From positions 1 through 30,788 of the IMG/VR virus record IMGVR_UViG_3300032245_001012: a stretch of 30,788 nucleotides of DNA. The stretch is one strand, 5' to 3'. Positions 6,157 through 24,288 of the stretch are shown in pieces (the first letter of the stretch is position 1; each line of letters begins with the position of its first letter). The translations under genes and the position numbers were made by a program. Under the pieces are notes generated by a model. That model searched no databases. It saw nothing but the letters and a program-made list of their open reading frames with translations, and was not told the origin of the DNA. The stretch comes from a virus.

Positions 6157-8360
6157 CCGGCTTCACTCAACGCACGGAAGTCAGCCGAGGCAACGTCAAC
6201 GGCTGGATCAATTCTTCGCTCAATGCCAACGCACCGACGACGGTTGCCTACAATGCGGTGCCCGATTATGCCGCTAGCGGCTACGGCACGCCCCCGTTTA
6301 CGTTCAACATGACCCGATACAACAACGGAAGGTGGACGACCAGCATCAACTGGTTCAGCACGTTGCCGACCGATCTAGCTAACACTTCCAAGTGGGTCAG
6401 ACTTTACATCGACGATACGGCAGGAAGCAACGCTAATAACGGCACCACGAAAGCCCTTGCTCTTCGAGACATCTTCTATGCCATCAACTCATTGACGGTA
6501 GCAGCTCAACCAGCGGCTTTCAACGTGATCTCGGCAATGACTGGAAATGCCGTTTTGATCCAAGTGACGACGACCTCGGCGCATTTTCTAGCAACGGGCG
6601 ATTACGTGACCATCACTGGATGCACTGGCAACACGGCAGCTAACGGAACGTGGCAAGTCACGGTGATTGACTCCACGAATTACACGCTTAATGGCAGTCT
6701 TGGGAACGGCACTTACACCGCAAACTCGGGTGCCATGCGTCGCCGAATCGTCTACATGATGAAGCCGGGAGGAAGCTGGAAGTTCACGGCAAGCGGTAAC
6801 GGCCAGTGTTGGAACGGTGGGCAAATTCAGTCTGACAGTCTCTTCATTCCGTGGGATGGAACCCGATCGTCCAGCACATGGACCAGCTCGATGGAACTTC
6901 CAGACCTTACCGGATGGGCCAATCTTGCCAGCCGTGGCGCGACCGTTTGGCGAGCAGGTCAACCGGCGACTGCTGGATCTCCCGGAACGCCAGCCGTCTT
7001 TGACTTTGGCCAGTTGGACAAGCTAAATCGCCCGGTTCGCTTGACTCTGGCTTCGGATACGGCAGGGGTCTACTCGACACCTAACACCGCAATCGTCGCT
7101 GGCAATACCAACGTGACTACCACGACCGGAAACGGCGTAAGCCCCATCGTTGTCACTACCTCTGGCACTCACAAGTTCACCACGGGAGATTCGGTAACGA
7201 TTAGCGGCGTGGTTGGCAACACCGCAGCCAACGGAACGTTTACGATCACCTACGTAGGCACGAACCAGTTTTCGCTTGATGGTACGACCGGAAACGGAGC
7301 GTATTCATCGGGTGGTTATGTCGCCTATGCCTACATCATCAATCTAGCCCGAACGGGTACTCCCGCTGATGGATCCATTGACTTCTGCCGAAACTCGGTT
7401 GATGGCCAGATGGCAGAATCGCCGTTCAAACTTTGGGTAAAGGGCGGAATCTTCCGGTACGGTGATCGATGCTTCTACACCTCTAACATCGACAAGACGA
7501 TCACGGGTGCGAGTAATCCCGGAACTATCACTATCACGACATCCGCAGCTCATGGCTACAACACGGGCGACTCGGTGACCATCGTCGGCGTAACAGGCAA
7601 CACTGCAGCCAATGGCACGTGGGTGATTACGGTGACTGGAACGACCACGTTCACGCTCAACAGCTCAACTGCTAGTGGAGCTTATGTGAGCGGCGGATTA
7701 GTTCAACGAAACTTCTATCCGTTGCTGGCATTTGAAAGCTGTCAGTTCAGCTTTTCAACGGGTTCGGGCAACGCTGGTTTCTACAGTGAACTTCCCGCCT
7801 ACATCTATCTGTTCAACTGTCAGGCCAACGACAACGAGTCGGATGGATTCAACTTCCGTCGCGGCCGGATCCTCAACGTCAACTGGATTGCCAATCGCAA
7901 CGGCTGTCTTTCGACGTCGGCGCCATACCTTGATTACCGAACGTCGGGATCGTGGGGAACCAACCAAGGCGAGACGATTCACCGAGGATCGGTGCTGTAC
8001 TCGGTCAACGGGCAAAGCACGCAGAACGGTGGGCAGGGTCGCTACCACGTTGGATCCGACACCAACTATAACACCGCGTACATCTGGGACTTTGGCGGGT
8101 TCTCGTGGTCGCAGCGAGGCGACACGACCAACCAAAAGGGCAACGCTGATTTTGGTGGCGGCAACTCGACCGACGTGGTGAAGTACTACATGTACGATCC
8201 CAAGGCGGTCAGTCCGGACGGTGCGGTTTCGACGTCAGATCAGAACTTTGCCATTCAGGACTCGGGTCTGCTTTATCCCGACATTGACCTGACGGGCGGC
8301 GTCTCGGCAAAGCTCAAGGTTAGCGGTACGGCGGCGACGACGCAGCTGGTGATTGTGTGA
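6153..8360 (+). CDS. Tail fibre with three FCCH-like repeats and a probable beta-helix region
   Basis: The protein has 735 residues and a GTG start inside the preceding stop (GTGA). Three copies of a domain of about 70 residues occur near residues 125-194, 322-392 and 447-517. Each contains the core TGDxVTI followed by GNTAANGT and then a closing segment rich in Gly, Tyr and Thr. Such repeats are usually annotated in phage fibres as similar to the E1 FCCH domain. After the third repeat, residues about 525-640 (strands around YIYLFNCQANDNESDGFNF) suggest a right-handed beta helix as in pectate-lyase-like tailspikes. This is the best candidate receptor-binding protein in the window. No enzymatic residues were identified, so it may be a binder, a depolymerase or both. 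Confidence 0.65.
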   Translation: MTGFTQRTEVSRGNVNGWINSSLNANAPTTVAYNAVPDYAASGYGTPPFTFNMTRYNNGRWTTSINWFSTLPTDLANTSKWVRLYIDDTAGSNANNGTTKALALRDIFYAINSLTVAAQPAAFNVISAMTGNAVLIQVTTTSAHFLATGDYVTITGCTGNTAANGTWQVTVIDSTNYTLNGSLGNGTYTANSGAMRRRIVYMMKPGGSWKFTASGNGQCWNGGQIQSDSLFIPWDGTRSSSTWTSSMELPDLTGWANLASRGATVWRAGQPATAGSPGTPAVFDFGQLDKLNRPVRLTLASDTAGVYSTPNTAIVAGNTNVTTTTGNGVSPIVVTTSGTHKFTTGDSVTISGVVGNTAANGTFTITYVGTNQFSLDGTTGNGAYSSGGYVAYAYIINLARTGTPADGSIDFCRNSVDGQMAESPFKLWVKGGIFRYGDRCFYTSNIDKTITGASNPGTITITTSAAHGYNTGDSVTIVGVTGNTAANGTWVITVTGTTTFTLNSSTASGAYVSGGLVQRNFYPLLAFESCQFSFSTGSGNAGFYSELPAYIYLFNCQANDNESDGFNFRRGRILNVNWIANRNGCLSTSAPYLDYRTSGSWGTNQGETIHRGSVLYSVNGQSTQNGGQGRYHVGSDTNYNTAYIWDFGGFSWSQRGDTTNQKGNADFGGGNSTDVVKYYMYDPKAVSPDGAVSTSDQNFAIQDSGLLYPDIDLTGGVSAKLKVSGTAATTQLVIV

Positions 8361-8704
8361 TGCCCGTTGATGAAAACGAACTGATACGAGTCACCCTTCA
8401 GCGCATCGAATCCAAGTTAGACACGATCCAGACCGAGTATCACACTCGGTTTGGCAGTATTGAGCTTCGGCTCGCATCGCTTGAGGGCACCAATTCCAAC
8501 CGCAAAGAAGGCATGAACCGGGCGTGGGCGGGCGTCTTTGCCTTCACGCTGCCCACCGTCGGATGCTTTGTCTGGCTGTTTACAACGCTGTATCAGACCA
8601 TCAACCGAGTTGACACCATTGACCTGTTTGGGAGCAAAGCGTCTCGCGACAAGCAGAAAGAATTTGACGACCGATTGAAGGTCATGGAGTCCAAAGCCAA
8701 ATGA
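8360..8704 (+). CDS. Membrane protein with N-terminal coiled coil, XhlA-like lysis candidate
   Basis: The chosen ATG overlaps the fibre stop by one base (TGATG); a GTG one codon upstream is an alternative. The product has 114 residues. The N-terminal half is a predicted amphipathic or coiled-coil helix (RVTLQRIESKLDTIQ). One hydrophobic segment follows at about 53-76 (AGVFAFTLPTVGCFVWLFTTL), and then a charged C-terminal helix. This plan recalls XhlA/hemolysin-type proteins that accompany holins. It directly follows the tail fibre and precedes a very small two-helix membrane protein, the usual place for a lysis cassette. A membrane anchor for another purpose is possible. Confidence 0.5.
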   Translation: MPVDENELIRVTLQRIESKLDTIQTEYHTRFGSIELRLASLEGTNSNRKEGMNRAWAGVFAFTLPTVGCFVWLFTTLYQTINRVDTIDLFGSKASRDKQKEFDDRLKVMESKAK

Positions 8705-8865
8705 AATATCAAATCACCAAAGTCATTCTAAGCCTCACTGCGGGGCTTACTGTCCTGTCCCTATCGGAAGAGCCTTGGACGGCCAAAACATACGTAGCGG
8801 CGGTTGTAGCGGCTATCACGGGCTGGCTGTCGCCTAGCAATCTTGGAGTGAAGAGGAAGCAATGA
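8701..8865 (+). CDS. Small two-helix membrane protein, holin candidate
   Basis: This is a 54-residue ORF joined to the gene before it by an ATGA overlap and to the gene after it by another. Two hydrophobic stretches, around VILSLTAGLTVLSL and YVAAVVAAITGWLS, are separated by a short acidic turn (SEEPW). The C-terminus is basic (VKRKQ). Small size, two membrane segments and a charged tail fit a class II holin. The endolysin is not next to it; it lies on the other strand at about 12.4-12.8 kb. The family is not recognised, so the call rests on topology and position. Confidence 0.5.
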   Translation: MKYQITKVILSLTAGLTVLSLSEEPWTAKTYVAAVVAAITGWLSPSNLGVKRKQ

Positions 8866-9041
8866 AAATCAGATGTAGAATCGGCGTCCGGCTCTTGTGG
8901 CCCATTACCAATGCGGCAACGTTCGTCGTCTACCTCAGCGAGCGGGATTACGACGACGCCCGGGATGCGGTTGGGGTGCTTAACCTGATCCTGCCGCCGG
9001 ACATTTCCAAGCGGTTCATTTTTGAGAGGGCTGACCAATGA
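8862..9041 (+). CDS. Small unknown protein of the lysis region
   Basis: This ORF encodes 59 residues with ATGA junctions on both sides, which is the main evidence that it is translated. The N-terminus is basic and the middle is hydrophobic to amphipathic (LLWPITNAATFVVYLSE). An acidic segment (RDYDDARDAV) and FERADQ follow. The first half could lie in a membrane. I do not recognise a family, so no function is proposed. Confidence 0.45.
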   Translation: MKIRCRIGVRLLWPITNAATFVVYLSERDYDDARDAVGVLNLILPPDISKRFIFERADQ

Positions 9042-9091
9042 CGGGTTGGCGTCTCTGGATTCATCCCCGGCGGTGGCTTCGACTAGCGTGA
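9038..9091 (+). CDS. Possible 17-residue peptide
   Basis: A very short frame starts at an ATG that overlaps the previous stop (ATGA) and encodes MTGWRLWIHPRRWLRLA. The peptide is Trp- and Arg-rich and amphipathic. The stop lies 6 bases before the start of the metallophosphoesterase gene. The same overlap style is used by the real genes here, but an ORF this short can arise by chance. It may be only a coupling element. Confidence 0.2.
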   Translation: MTGWRLWIHPRRWLRLA

Positions 9092-9097
9092 GGGCCT

Positions 9098-10318
9098 ATG
9101 AAAGCATCACCATGGAAGGAATCCGAAGTTGAGTTCATCTGTGACCATTTCAACGTAGACCTTACAGCTTCCCAAATTGCCGCCCAACTCAAACGCTCAT
9201 ACGACGCGGTCTCGTGCAAGATTAAGCAACTCGCCGCCGACGGCAAGATCACTCGCAGTCAAAAGATAGTCCAGATACGACCTACGGCAACGGTGCCGTA
9301 CATCCCACCAAGGGAAGAGGCACCACCCGTATCGCCTCAAAAGGTGTGGCGATTACTGACCTATTCGCCTCAGACCATCTACTCCATCGCGGACCAGCTG
9401 GACTCATCGCCCCGCGCCATTCGTGAGGCAATCGCGACGCTTGAGTCCGAGCAGTACCTGATCGAGTCTGACGGTCAGACCGTTCGCAAGTACGAACCAG
9501 AGGGCGGCACGTCGTCCCACTTCCCCCACAATCCCATTGATCTTGACGAGTACGACGGCAAGCTAATTCGGTTTGGCGTGATCTCGGACAATCATATGTG
9601 TAGCCGGTACGCGCGGCCTGACGTGGACAACGCGTTGTACGACATCTTTGCCGCCGAAGGCATTACCACCGTCTACAACACGGGCAACTGGATCGACGGA
9701 GAAGCGCGGTTCAATAAGAGTGACCTGAACGTACATGGTGCCGGGAACCAGTGCCGGTATTTCGCCAAGAACTATCCCCAGCGCGAGGGCATTACCACTT
9801 ACTTCATCGCTGGCGACGATCACGAAGGTTGGTACACCCAGCGCGAAGGCATCGACATCGGGAAGCTGGCAGAGTCTTACGCCAAGGAAGAGGGGCGCGA
9901 GGATCTCGTCTACCTTGGCTACATGGAGCATGACGTAGTGATTCCCGCTGACAACGGGCAGACGGTCATCAGGCTCATGCACCCCGGCGGTGGATCGGCG
10001 TATGCGGTCAGCTACACGGCTCAACAGATTGCCAACTCACTCACCGGCGGCACAAAGCCCAACGTCCTAATTCTGGGCCACTACCACAAGGCCGAATATC
10101 TGTACTACCGAGGGATTCACATGGTTCAGGCTGGATGTACGATGGATCAGTCACCGTTCATGCGGAAGAAGCGATTGGCGGCGCATATCGGCGGGTGGAT
10201 TGTTGAGATGCGGCAAAGCTCAGACGGCTCGGTGCGACGGTTCAAAGCGGAGTGGATCAGCTTCTTTGACGGGGCATTCCATGAGAACGAGTGGGCGTAC
10301 AAGATGGAATCCAACTGA
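9098..10318 (+). CDS. Metallophosphoesterase with N-terminal HTH and winged-helix domains
   Basis: This 406-residue protein appears to have three parts. Residues 5-50 resemble a Myb/SANT or GcrA-like helix-turn-helix (PWKESEVEFI, then SQIAAQLKRSYDAVSCKIKQL). Residues 82-131 look like a winged helix (YSIADQLDSSPRAIREAIATL). From 157 on there is a calcineurin-like phosphoesterase: DNH at 164-166, a GN at 196-197 where GD is usual, GDDHE at 239-243 where GNHD/E is usual, His295, and GHYH at 327-330. The metal-binding set is therefore mostly present but altered at two places. The family cleaves phosphodiesters, nucleotides or DNA with two metal ions. The gene lies between the lysis region and attP, where temperate phages often carry accessory genes. 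The substrate is unknown. Confidence 0.75.
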   Translation: MKASPWKESEVEFICDHFNVDLTASQIAAQLKRSYDAVSCKIKQLAADGKITRSQKIVQIRPTATVPYIPPREEAPPVSPQKVWRLLTYSPQTIYSIADQLDSSPRAIREAIATLESEQYLIESDGQTVRKYEPEGGTSSHFPHNPIDLDEYDGKLIRFGVISDNHMCSRYARPDVDNALYDIFAAEGITTVYNTGNWIDGEARFNKSDLNVHGAGNQCRYFAKNYPQREGITTYFIAGDDHEGWYTQREGIDIGKLAESYAKEEGREDLVYLGYMEHDVVIPADNGQTVIRLMHPGGGSAYAVSYTAQQIANSLTGGTKPNVLILGHYHKAEYLYYRGIHMVQAGCTMDQSPFMRKKRLAAHIGGWIVEMRQSSDGSVRRFKAEWISFFDGAFHENEWAYKMESN

Positions 10319-10390
10319 GAATAATCCCAACCCGCACTTCGGATTATCATAGACTTGGGCGACAACCGGACGTTTTATCACTCACGGTTG

Positions 10391-10600
10391 CCCCATTACC
10401 AACCCCATACCTGCCCAGCCATCTGTAGCGGCTCCCAGCGGCTAAATTGCCATCAATAGGTAATGGGGTGAACTTGGTCGTTTTGCCTGTGGCTCAGGAG
10501 GCCGTGGGTTCAATTCTCATCATCCGCCCCAAATTTGAACCTAAACCGCCCGGTTTTCAGCGATTGACGCGGATTGCCCCATACCAAACCCATTACCGGC
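10391..10600. other. attP: Probable attP region with flanking arm-type repeats
   Basis: The core is the tRNA-His 3' fragment at 10487-10531. Around it lie copies of a short motif: CCCCATTACC at 10391-10400, AACCCCATACC at 10401-10411, its exact reverse complement GGTAATGGGG at 10459-10468, GCCCCATACC at 10576-10585 and AACCCATTACC at 10587-10597. Repeated short sites on both sides of a tRNA-derived core, directly downstream of a tyrosine integrase gene, are the usual plan of an attP with integrase arm sites. The gap between the metallophosphoesterase and the integrase (10319-10592) holds nothing else that I can see. Confidence 0.75.
10487..10531 (+). other. tRNA-His(GTG) 3' fragment, att core
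   Basis: The segment reads as the 3' part of a tRNA-His. The loop CTGTGGC carries anticodon GTG at 10489-10491. The 3' anticodon strand TCAGG follows, then a 5-base variable loop and the T arm GTGGG/TTCAATT/CTCAT. The acceptor strand CATCCGC leads to discriminator C73 and an encoded CCA at 10529-10531. C73 is the hallmark of tRNA-His. The sequence upstream of the anticodon loop does not pair with this half, so there is no complete tRNA gene. Integration here would rebuild the 3' end of the host gene. Confidence 0.8.
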
Positions 10601-11573
10601 CGAACATCTTTAGCACGTCTGCGCCTGACAATTCCTCGTAAACCCGCTGGGTGAAACTGGTCTTGGTGTGCCCCAGCAAGTAGGTTCGCAGCTGGTCGGG
10701 GATTCCTGCCCGTCGCCATTCGTCGGCTCTCCACCCTCTCAGGTCGTACATGCGCGTCTCTGAGTGTTGCCGCCACCATTTACTCATGTGGTCTACCGGG
10801 TCAGCGATTCCCGGCCACGGGTCATCGGGGATCGTCTCAATCAATCGCGCCAGTTCATCGGTCACCGGAACACTGCGAATCCCGGCGGCGGTCTTGGACT
10901 TCGGGATACGAACAAGCCACCGATCAGAAACGACGTGCAGGTCGGACGGCTTGACTCGGCTGGCCTCAATGGGGCGCATACCGCATTCTCCCATCAACCT
11001 AAAGAACACAACCAAATGCGGGGCGGCAAGACTGAGCATCCGTTCGTACTCTTCCCGTGTCATCGGCGGGTAGGTCAGCTTCGTTTGCGTTGGCTTCGGG
11101 GATCTGATGTCCTCGGCGGGATTGGTCGTAATCCATCCCAAATCGGACACGGCAAAGGCGAGGGCTTGCTTGATGCAGAGTCGGTGCTTGCTGATGGTGC
11201 TCGAGCTTTTACCAATGCACTGCGCGACATGGATGCGCGTGAGCGTCGGCGCGGTCAGGTCAGCGACGTTGGATCTACCTGCAAGGCTTTCCCACTGCTT
11301 GGCATAGAGGTCCATCGCGGCGCGGTGATCGGCTCCGCTGTCAGCCCAAATCCTTGAGCGAACGATTTCAAACAGTTCGGATAGGGTGCCGCTAAGACTG
11401 GGAAGATGAAGGCGGCCGTTCTGAGCGAGCCACGTTTCGCGCTTTCGTTTGGCTTCGGCAAGGGTTGGAGCCTCAAAGTATTTGACGAGCTTCTGCTGAT
11501 GCTCGCCACGCAGGGCTAGGGCAATCCGCCAGCGTCCATCCTTGAGTTGCGTTCCCTGTCCCGGTCGTCTCAC
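10593..11573 (-). CDS. int: Tyrosine integrase
   Basis: This 326-residue site-specific recombinase would join attP to the host tRNA-His gene. The N-terminal part (about 1-55) is a basic arm-binding-like domain, residues about 60-160 are the SAM-like core-binding domain, and the rest is catalytic. Visible catalytic residues are Arg200 (GMRPIEA), Lys225 or Lys227, Arg279 in YDLRGWR, His302 in LLGH and nucleophile Tyr312 in RVYEEL. The His of the usual HxxR box is Tyr276 here, a tolerated but less common change. The GTG start overlaps the excisionase stop (GTGA). The 3' end lies about 60 bp from the att core. Confidence 0.92.
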   Translation of the reverse strand: MRRPGQGTQLKDGRWRIALALRGEHQQKLVKYFEAPTLAEAKRKRETWLAQNGRLHLPSLSGTLSELFEIVRSRIWADSGADHRAAMDLYAKQWESLAGRSNVADLTAPTLTRIHVAQCIGKSSSTISKHRLCIKQALAFAVSDLGWITTNPAEDIRSPKPTQTKLTYPPMTREEYERMLSLAAPHLVVFFRLMGECGMRPIEASRVKPSDLHVVSDRWLVRIPKSKTAAGIRSVPVTDELARLIETIPDDPWPGIADPVDHMSKWWRQHSETRMYDLRGWRADEWRRAGIPDQLRTYLLGHTKTSFTQRVYEELSGADVLKMFGR

Positions 11574-12144: not shown

Positions 12145-12407
12145 CACCAAACCTCCGCGCATCGCGCATATGCCTCGCCCAGCGGCCTGTATCGCCCGTG
12201 ACCGAGGCTGGCCCATGCCGTGTACATGACGTAAAGTCCCCGATTAGTAATGTCCCATTCATCCACTTCGGCAGTGCCGTCGCCTGCCCGCTCAATCGCA
12301 TCGGCAATCGCGGGTAGCAAAGACGACTGATTAAGCTGCCGATCAGCTAGGGCGAGGTAAAGTGCCTCGAGCTGCGCGGCGGTGCCTTCAACTTTGGTGA
12401 TAGTCAC
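12144..12407 (-). CDS. Unknown small protein of the leftward operon
   Basis: This 87-residue protein has a GTG start inside the preceding stop (GTGA). It is acidic to neutral and mainly helical in character (AAQLEALYLALADRQLNQSS), with a C-terminal segment rich in Tyr, Trp and Arg. No family, membrane segment or metal motif is recognised. Tight coupling on both sides supports translation. Confidence 0.5.
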   Translation of the reverse strand: MTITKVEGTAAQLEALYLALADRQLNQSSLLPAIADAIERAGDGTAEVDEWDITNRGLYVMYTAWASLGHGRYRPLGEAYARCAEVW

Positions 12408-12784
12408 GCTCTAGCCTCGCAGTGCGGTTTGTCTGGCGTCTTCCAATCTCCACCCCAAACCAATCCGTGCTTACGGCATAAGTGACCGTAGTAGTCCCAT
12501 GCCTCGTCAGTGATCTCGTAGGGATTACCGCCGCCGAAAGCGATGTCCACGGCAAGCCCTTTGAGGTGCTTGGACATCATTGTCCATGTGACTTTTGGCC
12601 CCGGCCGCGTTCGACCTTGGGCGTAAAGCCATGCTTGACGAGCAAGCGATCTTTTACCCTCGGTAACGATTACGAATCTTCCGGGTGCGTGAACCTTGAG
12701 CCACAGATCCAGCTCTGCTTTGACCAGCAGAAACGTGGACCTGAACTGCGGGTCGAGGCCCTGCAGTTTGTCTTGGTTGCTCAT
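12404..12784 (-). CDS. Endolysin, M15-type L-alanyl-D-glutamate peptidase
   Basis: The 126-residue enzyme would cut the peptide stem of peptidoglycan during lysis. The M15 zinc site is clear: the SxHxxGxAxD box (SKHLKGLAVD) gives ligands His73 and Asp80, and DKPH at 118-121 gives catalytic Asp118 and ligand His121. GKRSLARQAWLYAQG is the usual substrate-side helix. There is no signal peptide and no cell-wall-binding domain, so it should depend on a holin. The ATG at 12784 is favoured: it follows the upstream stop by 4 bases and has GAGGGG in front. It is unusual that it sits in the leftward early operon, far from the holin-like genes at 8.4-8.9 kb. Confidence 0.85.
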   Translation of the reverse strand: MSNQDKLQGLDPQFRSTFLLVKAELDLWLKVHAPGRFVIVTEGKRSLARQAWLYAQGRTRPGPKVTWTMMSKHLKGLAVDIAFGGGNPYEITDEAWDYYGHLCRKHGLVWGGDWKTPDKPHCEARA

Positions 12785-12788
12785 GACT

Positions 12789-13304
12789 TCACCCCTCGGC
12801 CTCAAGTTGAAGCTTGCTGTAATTGCCCCGCAACGGCTGACTGAACCAAAAGTCCAGATAGGAAAACAGGGCTTCGTATTCCGATCGGCTGGCGTCGTTC
12901 TCTTGCTTCTTGGCTACTGCCGCCTTAAAGTCATCCAACGTTCCGCAAAAGCAACCCCTGATGACGTACTGGTTATGGCGAATCAACGTCAATGTGCCCG
13001 ATTCAGATCCAATTGAAGTAATCCACTGGATGTCTGACCGATGGGCTACCTGGGCGTTGTCATAGACCCAGGCGTTGCCAGAGACCTGGGCGTTGCCATA
13101 GACCTGGGCGTTGCCAGAAACCCGGGCGTTGCCAGAAACCCAGGCGTTGCCAGAGACCTGGGCGTTGCCAGAGACCATACACGAGATTGCTACGCTCGCC
13201 GTGTTTTCAACCCACCCACCGACAGTGCCGTCTGGGTTTCGATGTTGGTGCCACGTCTCGGCAGTGGCGTGTCGGAAGATTTTTTTAAGCTGTTCTAAGT
13301 TCAT
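12789..13304 (-). CDS. Hexapeptide-repeat (YdcK-like) beta-helix protein
   Basis: The 171-residue protein contains seven consecutive six-residue repeats of the form SGNAxV (variants YGNAQV and YDNAQV) at about residues 43-86. This is the pattern of a left-handed parallel beta helix. Flanking parts include WVENTASVAIS before the repeats and GTLTLIRHNQYVIRGCFCGTLDDF after them; the latter recurs in phage proteins of this kind. Similar proteins are common in phages but their role is unclear. The start at 13304 has AAGG about 10 bases before it. The repeat DNA is a perfect-phase 18-bp tandem array. Confidence 0.7.
   Translation of the reverse strand: MNLEQLKKIFRHATAETWHQHRNPDGTVGGWVENTASVAISCMVSGNAQVSGNAWVSGNARVSGNAQVYGNAQVSGNAWVYDNAQVAHRSDIQWITSIGSESGTLTLIRHNQYVIRGCFCGTLDDFKAAVAKKQENDASRSEYEALFSYLDFWFSQPLRGNYSKLQLEAEG
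13053..13178. repeat. 18-bp tandem repeat, seven units
   Basis: On the + strand the unit begins GGCGTTG and continues with CCAgAgACC-type sequence. Units start at 13053, 13071, 13089, 13107, 13125, 13143 and 13161. Each encodes six residues on the minus strand, so loss or gain of units keeps the frame. Confidence 0.9.
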
Positions 13305-13678: not shown

Positions 13679-14065
13679 CTACTCCGCGAAGGGATCATAT
13701 GACTCCTGGTCGTTGGCAGCTTGTGCCGGTGCCTGATTGCCGCCGGGCTTCTTGTCCAGCCCGCTCACTTGGTCAACCGTCACCTCCCAGACCTCCCGGT
13801 TCTGCCCTTCCTTGTCCGTGTACTTGCGGCTCTCCATGCGCCCCTCAAGGCTCACTAGCGATCCTTTGGCAAGGTAGCCAGCGGCATACTCGGCGGACTG
13901 CCCCCAGACCTTACAGTTAAAGAAATCAGAATCCTTCTCGTCTGGGTTGGTCGGCTTGATCTTCTTGCGTACGGCCACGGTGATGGTGGCAAACGTCTTG
14001 CCCGTTGCCGTGGTCTTCTTCTCAACGTCGCGGACAAGGCGACCAATTAGAATGATGCGGTTCAT
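13679..14065 (-). CDS. ssb: Single-stranded DNA-binding protein
   Basis: This 128-residue OB-fold protein coats ssDNA during replication and recombination. The N-terminus MNRIILIGRLVRDVE is the canonical SSB start, followed by FATITVAVRKK, DFFNCKVWG and GSLVSLEGRMESRKY. The linker is short and rich in Gln and Ala. It ends in an acidic tip (DPFAE) of the kind that docks partner proteins. The ATG overlaps the upstream stop (ATGA). It lies two genes after the probable annealing protein, a usual pairing in phage recombination modules. Confidence 0.93.
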   Translation of the reverse strand: MNRIILIGRLVRDVEKKTTATGKTFATITVAVRKKIKPTNPDEKDSDFFNCKVWGQSAEYAAGYLAKGSLVSLEGRMESRKYTDKEGQNREVWEVTVDQVSGLDKKPGGNQAPAQAANDQESYDPFAE

Positions 14066-17807: not shown

Positions 17808-17980
17808 ACCTTACCGTCGCGCAAAGAAACGTGCTGGCATCCATGCCGATCAACGGCGAAATAGCGATGGGCGGCACTGATGCGCCGGCTGTCGTGTGGC
17901 TCCAAAAGCTCGGGCTGGTGGAGCATGTTGGCTGCTGGCGATACCGGATTACGCCCGCCGGACGGGAGGCATTGAAATGA
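17789..17980 (+). CDS. Small winged-helix-like protein
   Basis: The product has 63 residues. The C-terminal half, LQKLGLVEHVGCWRYRITPAG, has the look of the last helix and wing of a winged-helix domain, as found in many small phage proteins. It starts inside the 3' end of the membrane-protein gene and ends at an ATGA junction with rusA. DNA binding is an inference only. Confidence 0.5.
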   Translation: MARVEINLTVAQRNVLASMPINGEIAMGGTDAPAVVWLQKLGLVEHVGCWRYRITPAGREALK

Positions 17981-18420
17981 CTTTCTTTCTTGAGTGCATC
18001 CCAACGACGACGACGGCGCAGGGCAAACGGCAGAATCGAGCTACCGGCGCGTTCTTTAAGGATAAGGCGCACGAATTAGCCATGTCTTTCATGGTGGGAC
18101 TGCTTGCGCCACACCGCCCGCCTAAGCCGTTTTCTGGGCCTGTTTCCATGTCCGTGGCGTTCATTTGGCCGCACAAGAAAACGGGGCCTAAGGCAAGCCG
18201 TGAAGGGACCCAATACCGGACAACGAAGCCAGACCTAGACAACTTGGTAAAGGGCTTGATTGACGTGATGGCAGATCTCCATTTCTTTGAGGAAGGCGAC
18301 CAGCAGGTAGCGGAATTAAAGCTATCAAAGTTTCGAGGGGAGACGCCCGGTATTGCGATTAGGATTTCCGAAGCACAGTTACCGCCTTACCAGTTTTGGC
18401 ATCGGGAGGATTTTGAATGA
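17977..18420 (+). CDS. rusA: RusA-type Holliday junction resolvase
   Basis: The ATG at 17977 overlaps the upstream stop (ATGA); the product has 147 residues, normal for the family. The RusA signature KPDLDNLVKGLIDVM gives catalytic Asp86 and Asp88. A further acidic residue lies in EEGDQQVAELK (Asp108), where the family usually has a DD pair. Basic residues in WPHKKTGPKASR fit DNA binding. RusA cuts four-way DNA junctions and helps resolve recombination or replication intermediates before packaging. It is the first recognisable enzyme of the rightward operon. Confidence 0.87.
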   Translation: MTFFLECIPTTTTAQGKRQNRATGAFFKDKAHELAMSFMVGLLAPHRPPKPFSGPVSMSVAFIWPHKKTGPKASREGTQYRTTKPDLDNLVKGLIDVMADLHFFEEGDQQVAELKLSKFRGETPGIAIRISEAQLPPYQFWHREDFE

Positions 18421-18593: not shown

Positions 18594-18883
18594 AGGAGCG
18601 AATCCTAGAGCTGCGGCAGCAGGGCCTTTCGGCGACCAAGATTGCCAACCAACTTAACGCGGAAGGGTCGCTAACTCCAAGCGGCTTAGAGTGGACAGCT
18701 AAGCACGTTTACAACCACGAAAACAGCGGCGAGAAGACGCCACGAACACCCCAAGAATTGTTGGCCCACGACCCAACGAACAAGTTGGCGTTAGCCGATC
18801 TTGACGACCGGGCGCGATATTTCGCCAGCGGCAATCTTGATATTTGGGCAATTCGGCATATCAACGAGGAGTACAGCAAGTGA
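18590..18883 (+). CDS. HTH protein resembling the recombinase-type helix region
   Basis: The GTG start overlaps the previous stop (GTGA); the product has 97 residues. The segment LRQQGLSATKIANQLNAEGS, then LTPSGLEWTAKHVYNHE, follows the pattern I remember from large serine recombinases and small phage HTH proteins that choose DNA sites. The rest, RTPQELLAHDPTN and on, is helical. No catalytic domain is present, so it is most likely a stand-alone DNA-binding protein directly upstream of the methyltransferase. A regulator of that gene is possible. Confidence 0.5.
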   Translation: MKERILELRQQGLSATKIANQLNAEGSLTPSGLEWTAKHVYNHENSGEKTPRTPQELLAHDPTNKLALADLDDRARYFASGNLDIWAIRHINEEYSK

Positions 18884-19974
18884 CCCATCTAGAACTATTT
18901 GCAGGAATAGGCGGGATCGCCATCGCCTCCGAATGGGCGGGATTTGAACACGTTGGGTTTGTTGAGCGTGATCCGTTCTGCCAGAAAGTCTTAGCCAAGC
19001 ACTGGCCCCATGTCCCAATTTACGACGATGTTAGAACATTTGACGGAACAGAATTCAGAGGCGTTGACCTCATCAGCGGTGGCTTTCCATGCCAGCCCCA
19101 CCCCCTTGCTGGAAGCCGTAAGGCGTCTGGCGACGAGCGTGATCTCTGGGGAGAATTCAGGCGTCTTGTGGGGGAAGCGAGACCGACATGGGTGTTGGCA
19201 GAAAACGTCCCAGGATTGTTTAGCTCTGAATCTGGAAGATTCTTCGGGCGAGTGGTCGATGACCTGGCCACGTTGGGGTACCGCGTGGGATGGGCTTGTT
19301 ATGGAGCATCCGACACCGGAGCGGTTCACCGTCGAAATCGGGTTTTCATCGTTGCCTACTCCGCGCTCGGAGAAGATGACTGGCGAGAACGCCGAGACAT
19401 GGAGCGCCCGAACGCAGGACGGGAAACACGCATCAAAACCGCTAGCTTTGGCAGTTCAGATGTTGCCTACTCCGACTTCCAGCGAACACAAGTACAGGTT
19501 GCAGGGGGACTCTCAGCAGAGCAACTGCTTAGAAGCGAGGGCGCGACGGGGGGAACTGCTACCCACTCCGCAAGCGTGGGATGCGAAAGATTATCATGCG
19601 GCGAAACCCGAGATAGTCAAGACGCGGGAACAGCAAAAGAAGCGGGGCGGCGGTTGTGCGAATCTGGCCGAGAGAATGGCGGCGCAAATGTTGCCTACGC
19701 CAGCCGCATCTCAAATGGGCAAGCCAGTACGACCGCTGATACCATCGGAAATAGACGGGACGCCCGGCACTATGTTGGTTGGAGCGATAGGTCAAGCGAT
19801 TGGCGAGAATGGGGAATCAGTCCAACGGTTAGGCTTGAACCCCGAGTTCGTCGAGGTGATGATGAACTTCCCCGTCGGATGGACCGAGTTAACCGACTGA
19901 AGGCACTAGGTAACGCCGTAGTCCCAGCTCAGATTTACCCAATCCTGAAAGCGATAGCGGAGGCAAGCAAGTGA
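18880..19974 (+). CDS. DNA (cytosine-5) methyltransferase
   Basis: From the GTG at 18880 (GTGA overlap) the enzyme has 364 residues. It methylates cytosine C5 in DNA using S-adenosylmethionine. Motif I is FAGIGG (7-12), motif IV GGFPCQP with catalytic Cys71, motif VI AENV (107-110), motif VIII HRRNRVF (about 150) and motif X ALGNAVVP near residue 343. The target-recognition stretch between VIII and X (about 160-320) is low in hydrophobic residues and contains repeated VAYS-type blocks. No restriction enzyme is seen beside it, so self-protection of phage DNA is a likely role. A second long frame runs through most of this gene. Confidence 0.9.
   Translation: MTHLELFAGIGGIAIASEWAGFEHVGFVERDPFCQKVLAKHWPHVPIYDDVRTFDGTEFRGVDLISGGFPCQPHPLAGSRKASGDERDLWGEFRRLVGEARPTWVLAENVPGLFSSESGRFFGRVVDDLATLGYRVGWACYGASDTGAVHRRNRVFIVAYSALGEDDWRERRDMERPNAGRETRIKTASFGSSDVAYSDFQRTQVQVAGGLSAEQLLRSEGATGGTATHSASVGCERLSCGETRDSQDAGTAKEAGRRLCESGRENGGANVAYASRISNGQASTTADTIGNRRDARHYVGWSDRSSDWREWGISPTVRLEPRVRRGDDELPRRMDRVNRLKALGNAVVPAQIYPILKAIAEASK
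19010..19900 (+). CDS. Overlapping frame: methyltransferase-associated LPTP-box protein
   Basis: This 296-residue frame lies wholly inside the methyltransferase gene, shifted by one base. It contains WPRWGTAWDGLVMEHPTPE, four LPTP boxes (SSLPTPRS, QMLPTPTS, ELLPTPQA, QMLPTPAA) and an ending GLNPEFVEVMMNFPVGWTE. I recognise this order from proteins that occur beside or within phage C5 methyltransferases. The boxes correspond to the VAYS-type blocks of the methyltransferase frame, because GTTGCCTACTCC reads V-A-Y-S in one frame and L-P-T-P in the next. No good ribosome site was found before the ATG at 19010. It is either a true overprinted gene or a reading that mirrors constraints on the methyltransferase. 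Confidence 0.45.
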   Translation: MSQFTTMLEHLTEQNSEALTSSAVAFHASPTPLLEAVRRLATSVISGENSGVLWGKRDRHGCWQKTSQDCLALNLEDSSGEWSMTWPRWGTAWDGLVMEHPTPERFTVEIGFSSLPTPRSEKMTGENAETWSARTQDGKHASKPLALAVQMLPTPTSSEHKYRLQGDSQQSNCLEARARRGELLPTPQAWDAKDYHAAKPEIVKTREQQKKRGGGCANLAERMAAQMLPTPAASQMGKPVRPLIPSEIDGTPGTMLVGAIGQAIGENGESVQRLGLNPEFVEVMMNFPVGWTELTD

Positions 19975-23913: not shown

Positions 23914-24288
23914 ATGGCAACTCACGGCGGGGCTAGACCTAATTCAGGCCGCAAAAAGACCAGAGACGTAAACGAAAGCGCGGTGCGTGAAGCGGAAAAG
24001 AAAATCCGTGACCGACTGCCGCAGATCATCGACAATCTTTTGATCCTTGCTGGCGGTGTGAAGGTCGAAGAGACTACAGCAGAAGGCGAGACAGTGGTTT
24101 ACAAAAAGCCACCCTGCCGACAGACCAACGAGTACCTCGTTAACCGGATACTTGGCAAGCCAACTGAAAAGGTTGAAAGCGAAAATAGCGGCGGCATGAC
24201 CGTTCGCGTGGTGTATGGAACTGACAGTCAGCCTTCCCAAATTTCATCCGGCGCAGACCGAGATTTGGCAGAACCGGAAGCGATATAA
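23914..24288 (+). CDS. terS: Small terminase subunit
   Basis: This 124-residue protein starts behind AAGGAGG, a strong ribosome site about 10 bases from the ATG. The N-terminus GGARPNSGRKK is the short basic DNA-binding start typical of many phage small terminases. A helical middle with oligomerisation character (KKIRDRLPQIIDNLLIL) and the segment TNEYLVNRILGKPTEK (about 72-87) follow. The C-terminal tail is acidic. The gene overlaps terL by 74 bases. The subunit would recognise pac/cos DNA and regulate the large subunit. Identification relies on the N-terminal motif and on position. Confidence 0.72.
   Translation: MATHGGARPNSGRKKTRDVNESAVREAEKKIRDRLPQIIDNLLILAGGVKVEETTAEGETVVYKKPPCRQTNEYLVNRILGKPTEKVESENSGGMTVRVVYGTDSQPSQISSGADRDLAEPEAI

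Follow-up and report, generated by a model that had tools for sequence, protein, structure and literature searches.

The locus examined here raises the question of what a viral protein does in which two DNA-binding modules are joined to a calcineurin-like phosphoesterase domain with altered signature motifs. The window, that is the whole stretch of DNA analyzed, comprises 30,788 nucleotides of a virus (IMG/VR record IMGVR_UViG_3300032245_001012). An earlier note on it had described an ORF fusing two DNA-binding domains to an altered calcineurin-like domain, and this description is confirmed, with the ORF coding for 406 amino acids (the window protein). In a search of the open-access literature we found no paper on the family to which this protein belongs.

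Domain architecture and selection

The gene and the modules encoded by it are as follows:
9088..9093, + strand: GTGAGG, a plausible ribosome-binding site preceding the ATG, as read in the sequence
9098..10318, + strand: gene for the HTH / winged-helix / DP1-like phosphoesterase protein (ATG start, 406 aa ORF, P0001)
9119..9238, + strand: N-terminal HTH, residues 8-47, GcrA/SANT-like, an exchangeable module (weak sequence matches and AF2 model)
9335..9490, + strand: winged helix-turn-helix, residues 80-131, clade-wide (Pfam HTH_11, AF2 model and fold match)
9560..10267, + strand: calcineurin-like phosphoesterase domain of the DP1 type, residues 155-390 (profile and fold matches)

Comparison with the gene of a relative whose protein is 97% identical (L001) revealed 111 silent and 11 residue-changing codon differences (dN 0.017, dS 0.592), and the resulting dN/dS of 0.03 implies strong purifying selection on the window protein. 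The DNA similarity between the two, 89%, extends from 8355 to 10384 and ends short of the integrase gene. On sequence grounds, this ratio and the 194 related stretches confirmed in IMG/VR mark the gene as real and selected. A further 32 related stretches were recovered in GTDB genomes, and a plasmid search yielded no relative.

Structure prediction places helix-turn-helix folds in the N-terminal 135 residues, as the earlier note had expected, and the protein was not recovered as a member of a known family with an assigned structural role. In an AF2 model built on 81 relatives (mean pLDDT 88.5) the first HTH consists of three helices (residues 8-18, 24-31 and 35-47), and the winged helix of helices 80-89, 94-100 and 105-117 with strands 122-124 and 128-131; a low-confidence linker occupies residues 55-68. 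A separate model of residues 1-138 reproduces these elements, though less confidently (72.7). The winged helix exceeds the cut-off of Pfam HTH_11 (residues 85-125), and its top fold match is a BirA-type winged helix (Z 8.8, rmsd 1.9 over 58 aa). The fold search with residues 1-138 mainly probed this second module, and the first HTH rests on the model together with weak sequence matches to phrog_323 (E 4e-7 at residues 2-53) and Pfam GcrA (E 0.003 at residues 6-67).

Throughout the clade that shares the motif variants described below, the winged helix and the phosphoesterase core are constant and the segment before the winged helix varies. It is GcrA/SANT-like in the window protein and a few others, whereas many members have a different HTH, the L010 group carries a CxxC zinc finger, and L004 and L074 have nearly nothing there. 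By eye, an IS1-type zinc ribbon takes its place in L027, L063 and L088, and NCBIfam IS1-type zinc models match two members. As the outermost DNA-binding module is exchanged on a constant core, we suggest that the target DNA may differ between phages.

Relationship to the small subunit of archaeal PolD

The alpha/beta sandwich fold of the superfamily is present, with residues 154-397 of the model matching many of its members (top Z 20.6). Pfam Metallophos_2 stays under its cut-off for the window protein (E 9e-4); the fold match is clear. A PDB search with the single window sequence gave no match, and a search with a profile of 82 relatives returned six DP1 chains as the best matches (E 6e-6 to 5e-4). 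The same affinity was seen in NCBIfam, where the leading matches are to five models of the PolD small subunit (first NF003118, which matches 44 of the 81 members with a best E of 8e-21, then its four sister models), and in an hhalign comparison of the family profile with archaeal DP1s (95.7%, E 1e-8). Foldseek placed nine PolD (DP1) chains at ranks 1-9, and VIA-align gave DP1 a Z of 20.6 (rmsd 2.8 over 224 residues). Sequence profiles and fold agree in placing the domain nearest to DP1, the subunit that provides 3'-5' proofreading in archaeal PolD. The window protein itself scores 23 bits against NF003118, whose curated cut-off is 445, and is therefore DP1-like rather than a DP1.

Comparison with DP1 structures (5IHE, 6T8H, 8PPT) shows a common phosphoesterase fold, the same order of ligand positions, the catalytic His and a QTxF after the GHxH. 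DP1 carries an N-terminal OB domain and pairs with DP2; in our model the N-terminal part is filled by the HTH and winged helix. PolD has been described as exclusively archaeal (PMC10721889). No DNA polymerase for which the protein could proofread was recognized in the window.

Mre11 and SbcD share the superfamily fold with its two-metal site and differ in their lower fold score (Z about 15, VIA-align value for Mre11). We know of no winged-helix fusion of this kind for either. No SbcD model occurs among the NCBIfam matches of the 81 members, five members match a PHROG named SbcD-like, and a search for the SbcD family across six host genomes gave no match. PADLOC models of anti-phage defense gave weak matches only, that of the window protein falling in its winged helix.

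Among 50,697 annotated phage records there is a single relative, ORF43 of the Halorubrum tailed virus BLv36 (WLW38154.1, 'hypothetical protein'). It shows 29% identity to the window protein over two thirds of the query and differs from it in having the canonical GD and GNHD motifs and in sitting in an apparent head gene region. In BFVD the name 'DNA polymerase II small subunit' is already attached to some remotely related phage proteins. One 660-residue phage relative in BFVD, A0A8S5P6X8, is named for a Hint/intein domain and possibly represents an intein within such a phosphoesterase.

A paired exchange of metal ligands

The metal ligands of Pyrococcus abyssi DP1 are D360, H362, D404, N450, H497, H560 and H562, and H451 is required (PMC10721889). 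Alignment to DP1 identifies the following counterparts in the window protein:
9587..9595, + strand: motif I, D164-N-H166 (DP1 D360, H362)
9683..9688, + strand: motif II, G196-N197 (Asn replaces DP1 D404)
9812..9826, + strand: motif III, G239-D240-D241-H242-E243 (Asp replaces DP1 N450)
9980..9982, + strand: H295 (DP1 H497)
10076..10087, + strand: G327-H328-Y-H330 (DP1 H560, H562)

The motifs reported in the earlier note, GN for GD and GDDHE for GNHD, with D164xH166, H295 and GHYH present, are thus borne out. In the hhalign alignment N197 lies opposite D404, D241 opposite N450 and H242 on the catalytic H451, such that the D404/N450 pair of DP1 is exchanged as N197/D241, with one residue, D240, inserted. 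All seven ligand positions of DP1 are filled by metal-capable residues (D164, H166, N197, D241, H295, H328 and H330). Relative to the canonical letters of the superfamily (DxH, GD, GNH[DE], H, GHxH), the DxH, H and GHxH are kept and the GD and GNHD are altered clade-wide; by fold the protein is a superfamily relative and by motif set a variant. We read this as a shift of charge between ligand positions, from motif II to motif III, in a site that would still bind two metals.

A survey of 170 distinct relatives shows how closely the two changes are paired. The 91 GN proteins carry GDDHE (84), GEDHE (3), ADEHE (1), SSTCHE (2) or GSCHE (1), so that the motif III ligand is Asp or Glu in 88 and Cys in 3, and none has GNHD. 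Conversely, in the 75 relatives with GD and otherwise intact motifs, the third motif is GNHD in 73, GSHD in one, GNHG in one and GDDHE in none. The remaining four are upstream copies from Woesearchaeota, in which GD is retained and other ligands are lost. A tree built without the motif columns accounts for GN versus GD by two changes and gathers nearly all GN proteins in one branch (SH-aLRT 97; hereafter the GN clade). This points mainly to one old exchange held at ~40% identity rather than repeated convergence, and the paired counts are accordingly not to be read as independent events. Clade-wide, paired changes of this kind lead us to reject a degenerate copy.

Within the GN clade the acid gives way to Glu in L088 (ADEHE) or to Cys in L185; Cys at the position equivalent to 241 occurs in three GN proteins, L181, L159 and L185 (SSTCHE in two, GSCHE in one). 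Relatives of the canonical type, which are also common among viral contigs, vary in motif I, with DxQ in 22 (L104, L140, L198 and 19 others) and CxH in 8 (L184, L182, L170 and 5 others).

In four Woesearchaeota loci two family genes are adjacent (L101:1440-3733, L102:1733-4188, L103:6743-9125 and L108:7881-10318), three of the four pairs overlapping by 4 bases. The downstream copy resembles the window protein in its GN and GDDHE motifs with ligands intact and also carries an insertion; the upstream copy, unlike the window protein, lacks motifs I and III and some of the GHxH, keeps GD and looks inactive. The surrounding genes look chromosomal, and a strong DP1 match is present in two of the four genomes. 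Inteins, suspected in these genes from long matches, proved to be insertions and tandem copies. The pairing suggests that the two products might form an asymmetric heterodimer.

These patterns bear on the proposal, also raised in the earlier note, that the protein is a metal-binding regulator that has lost full catalysis. In its fuller form this would be a catalytically dead DNA-binding regulator, whose phosphoesterase domain serves as a scaffold for metal or protein and which might regulate the integrase or late genes. The presence of two DNA-binding modules agrees with such a role. However, the odd positions are family-wide, motif III compensates for the missing motif II Asp, and every ligand position, like the catalytic His, persists at deep divergence, which together disfavor lost catalysis. 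True pseudoenzymes near the clade, namely the Woesearchaeota upstream copies, look different, with the motif losses described above.

Genomic neighborhoods

The immediate neighbors of the window gene are:
8357..8704, + strand: holin-like small membrane protein, upstream neighbor (label inferred; no PHROG match)
10504..10531, + strand: tRNA-3'-end-like stretch, a putative attP core, as read in the sequence
10593..11573, - strand: tyrosine integrase, convergent neighbor (phrog_1, E 6e-34)

The integrase gene starts 275 bases past the end of the window gene, and short ORFs, recognized by eye, occupy part of the gap 8702-9098. The gene had been placed between lysis genes and attP, a common site for cargo. 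In this picture the adjoining integrase stands, whereas the lysis genes reduce to the one holin-like ORF, and neither 7 genomes nor a viral scan yielded a copy of the attP-like stretch. Rfam and ARAGORN returned nothing useful for a tRNA-based attP, and promoter and terminator scans gave no usable signal above chance. The window phage has it as an accessory gene, with late genes on one side and the integrase on the other, a position that suggests late expression. By eye we also noted a putative M15-type endolysin (12404-12805, -), a putative SSB (13679-14065, -), a putative RusA-like resolvase (17896-18420, +) and a putative C5 cytosine methyltransferase (18844-19974, +).

The cargo-site argument fits the window phage and a related group but not the family, whose genes also lie beside RecA, ribonucleotide reductase (RNR), ThyX and endonuclease VII. 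Neighbors of the GN clade also include integrase, lysozyme and dATP/dGTP diphosphohydrolase, and in L074 RNR and ThyX are directly upstream of the family gene. As the neighborhoods differ widely, they support no single pathway. An integrase-like neighbor was seen in 19 loci, which are partly redundant and include many near-copies. After collapsing these, an integrase lies within 3 kb in 2 of 49 GN representatives, by a narrow integrase model that misses some, and we do not regard integrase association as a property of the clade.

The integrase neighbors recall Bxb1 gp47, which is reported to be an inactive protein serving as a recombination directionality factor for its integrase (PMC12287305). 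Another phage phosphoesterase, gp48 of mycobacteriophage A10ZJ24, degrades DNA in vitro (PMC12287305). Both are phage-borne calcineurin-like proteins like the window protein; unlike it, they are 255 aa long, have no DNA-binding modules, and combine a DTQ motif I with canonical GD and GNHD. The window protein did not group with them (hhalign 3.9%, no hmmsearch match at E 10). The Bxb1 precedent and the adjoining integrases thus lend something to the dead-regulator proposal, but there is no profile relation to gp47 beyond the superfamily and the integrase of the tested type is near few GN representatives; taken with the retained ligands, this leaves a dead regulator unlikely. The gp48 precedent, together with the accessory position next to the integrase, would fit a narrower nuclease role, in which the protein damages host DNA in counter-defense or host takeover. 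Yet gp48 is an early-expressed protein of a different subfamily, while the window gene follows late genes, and we rate this role as distinctly improbable.

Another narrower nuclease role, in genome packaging or at DNA ends together with terminase, is prompted by canonical GD/GNHD relatives that often, by eye, lie just 5' of the TerS, TerL and portal genes (for example in L183, L193, L142 and L205); HNH proteins work with terminase in other phages. Striking as this appears, a terminase lies within 3 kb of 10 of 20 GD relatives against 6.6 expected, an excess not clearly beyond chance, and of 0 of 11 in the GN clade against 1.9 expected. The terminase of the window is at 24215, far from the window gene, and a packaging role is very improbable.

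Calcineurin-like enzymes include cyclic-nucleotide hydrolases, and genes for a deoxyribosyltransferase and a dATP/dGTP diphosphohydrolase recur near family genes. The fold matches include Rv0805 and MJ0936. A small-molecule phosphodiesterase that hydrolyzes cyclic or modified nucleotides, as a counter to nucleotide-signaled defense for example, with the DNA-binding modules serving autoregulation, might account for these observations. However, enzymes of the Rv0805/MJ0936 type rank well under DP1 by both fold and sequence, and such an activity is hard to square with fusion to exchangeable DNA-binding modules; we hold it to be rather improbable.

A proposed DNA-tethered nuclease and its implications

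Based on these observations we favor, at somewhat better than even likelihood, an active DP1-type two-metal phosphodiesterase that is tethered to DNA through the winged helix and a replaceable head and is most probably a DNA nuclease. Under this proposal two metals would be held by the seven retained ligands, H242 would assist catalysis, and the DNA-binding modules would deliver the nuclease to particular DNA. This could be the phage's own DNA, in repair, recombination or end processing, or else that of the host or a competitor. The 'targeted DNA or nucleotide phosphoesterase' of the earlier note is thereby upheld in kind, in the two DNA-binding modules and the DP1-type phosphodiesterase domain. 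As phosphoesterase folds are promiscuous, the resemblance to DP1 is no proof of a DNA substrate. We found no enzyme with both an assayed activity and exchanged ligands of the GN type.

The fold, the superfamily and the resemblance to DP1 are of already known kinds; as far as our searches reach, the clade-wide ligand exchange is new, and so is its combination with exchangeable DNA-binding heads. A broader proposal, which we consider plausible though short of an even chance, is that viruses carry, in these proteins, a large lineage of DP1-type nucleases outside PolD, with an inverted two-metal center (motif II Asp to Asn, motif III Asn to Asp, Glu or Cys) and interchangeable DNA-binding heads, the target changing by domain swap. 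If true, the inverted center would change how metal is used or which substrate is chosen. The conserved Asp/Asn exchange amounts to a natural experiment on how phosphoesterases use their two metals, in proteins that annotation by motif only would label dead. The DP1-like domain, widespread in viral contigs, polymerase-free and joined there to a shuffled set of DNA-binding domains, is relevant to the origin of DP1 and to the role of DP1-like domains outside PolD.
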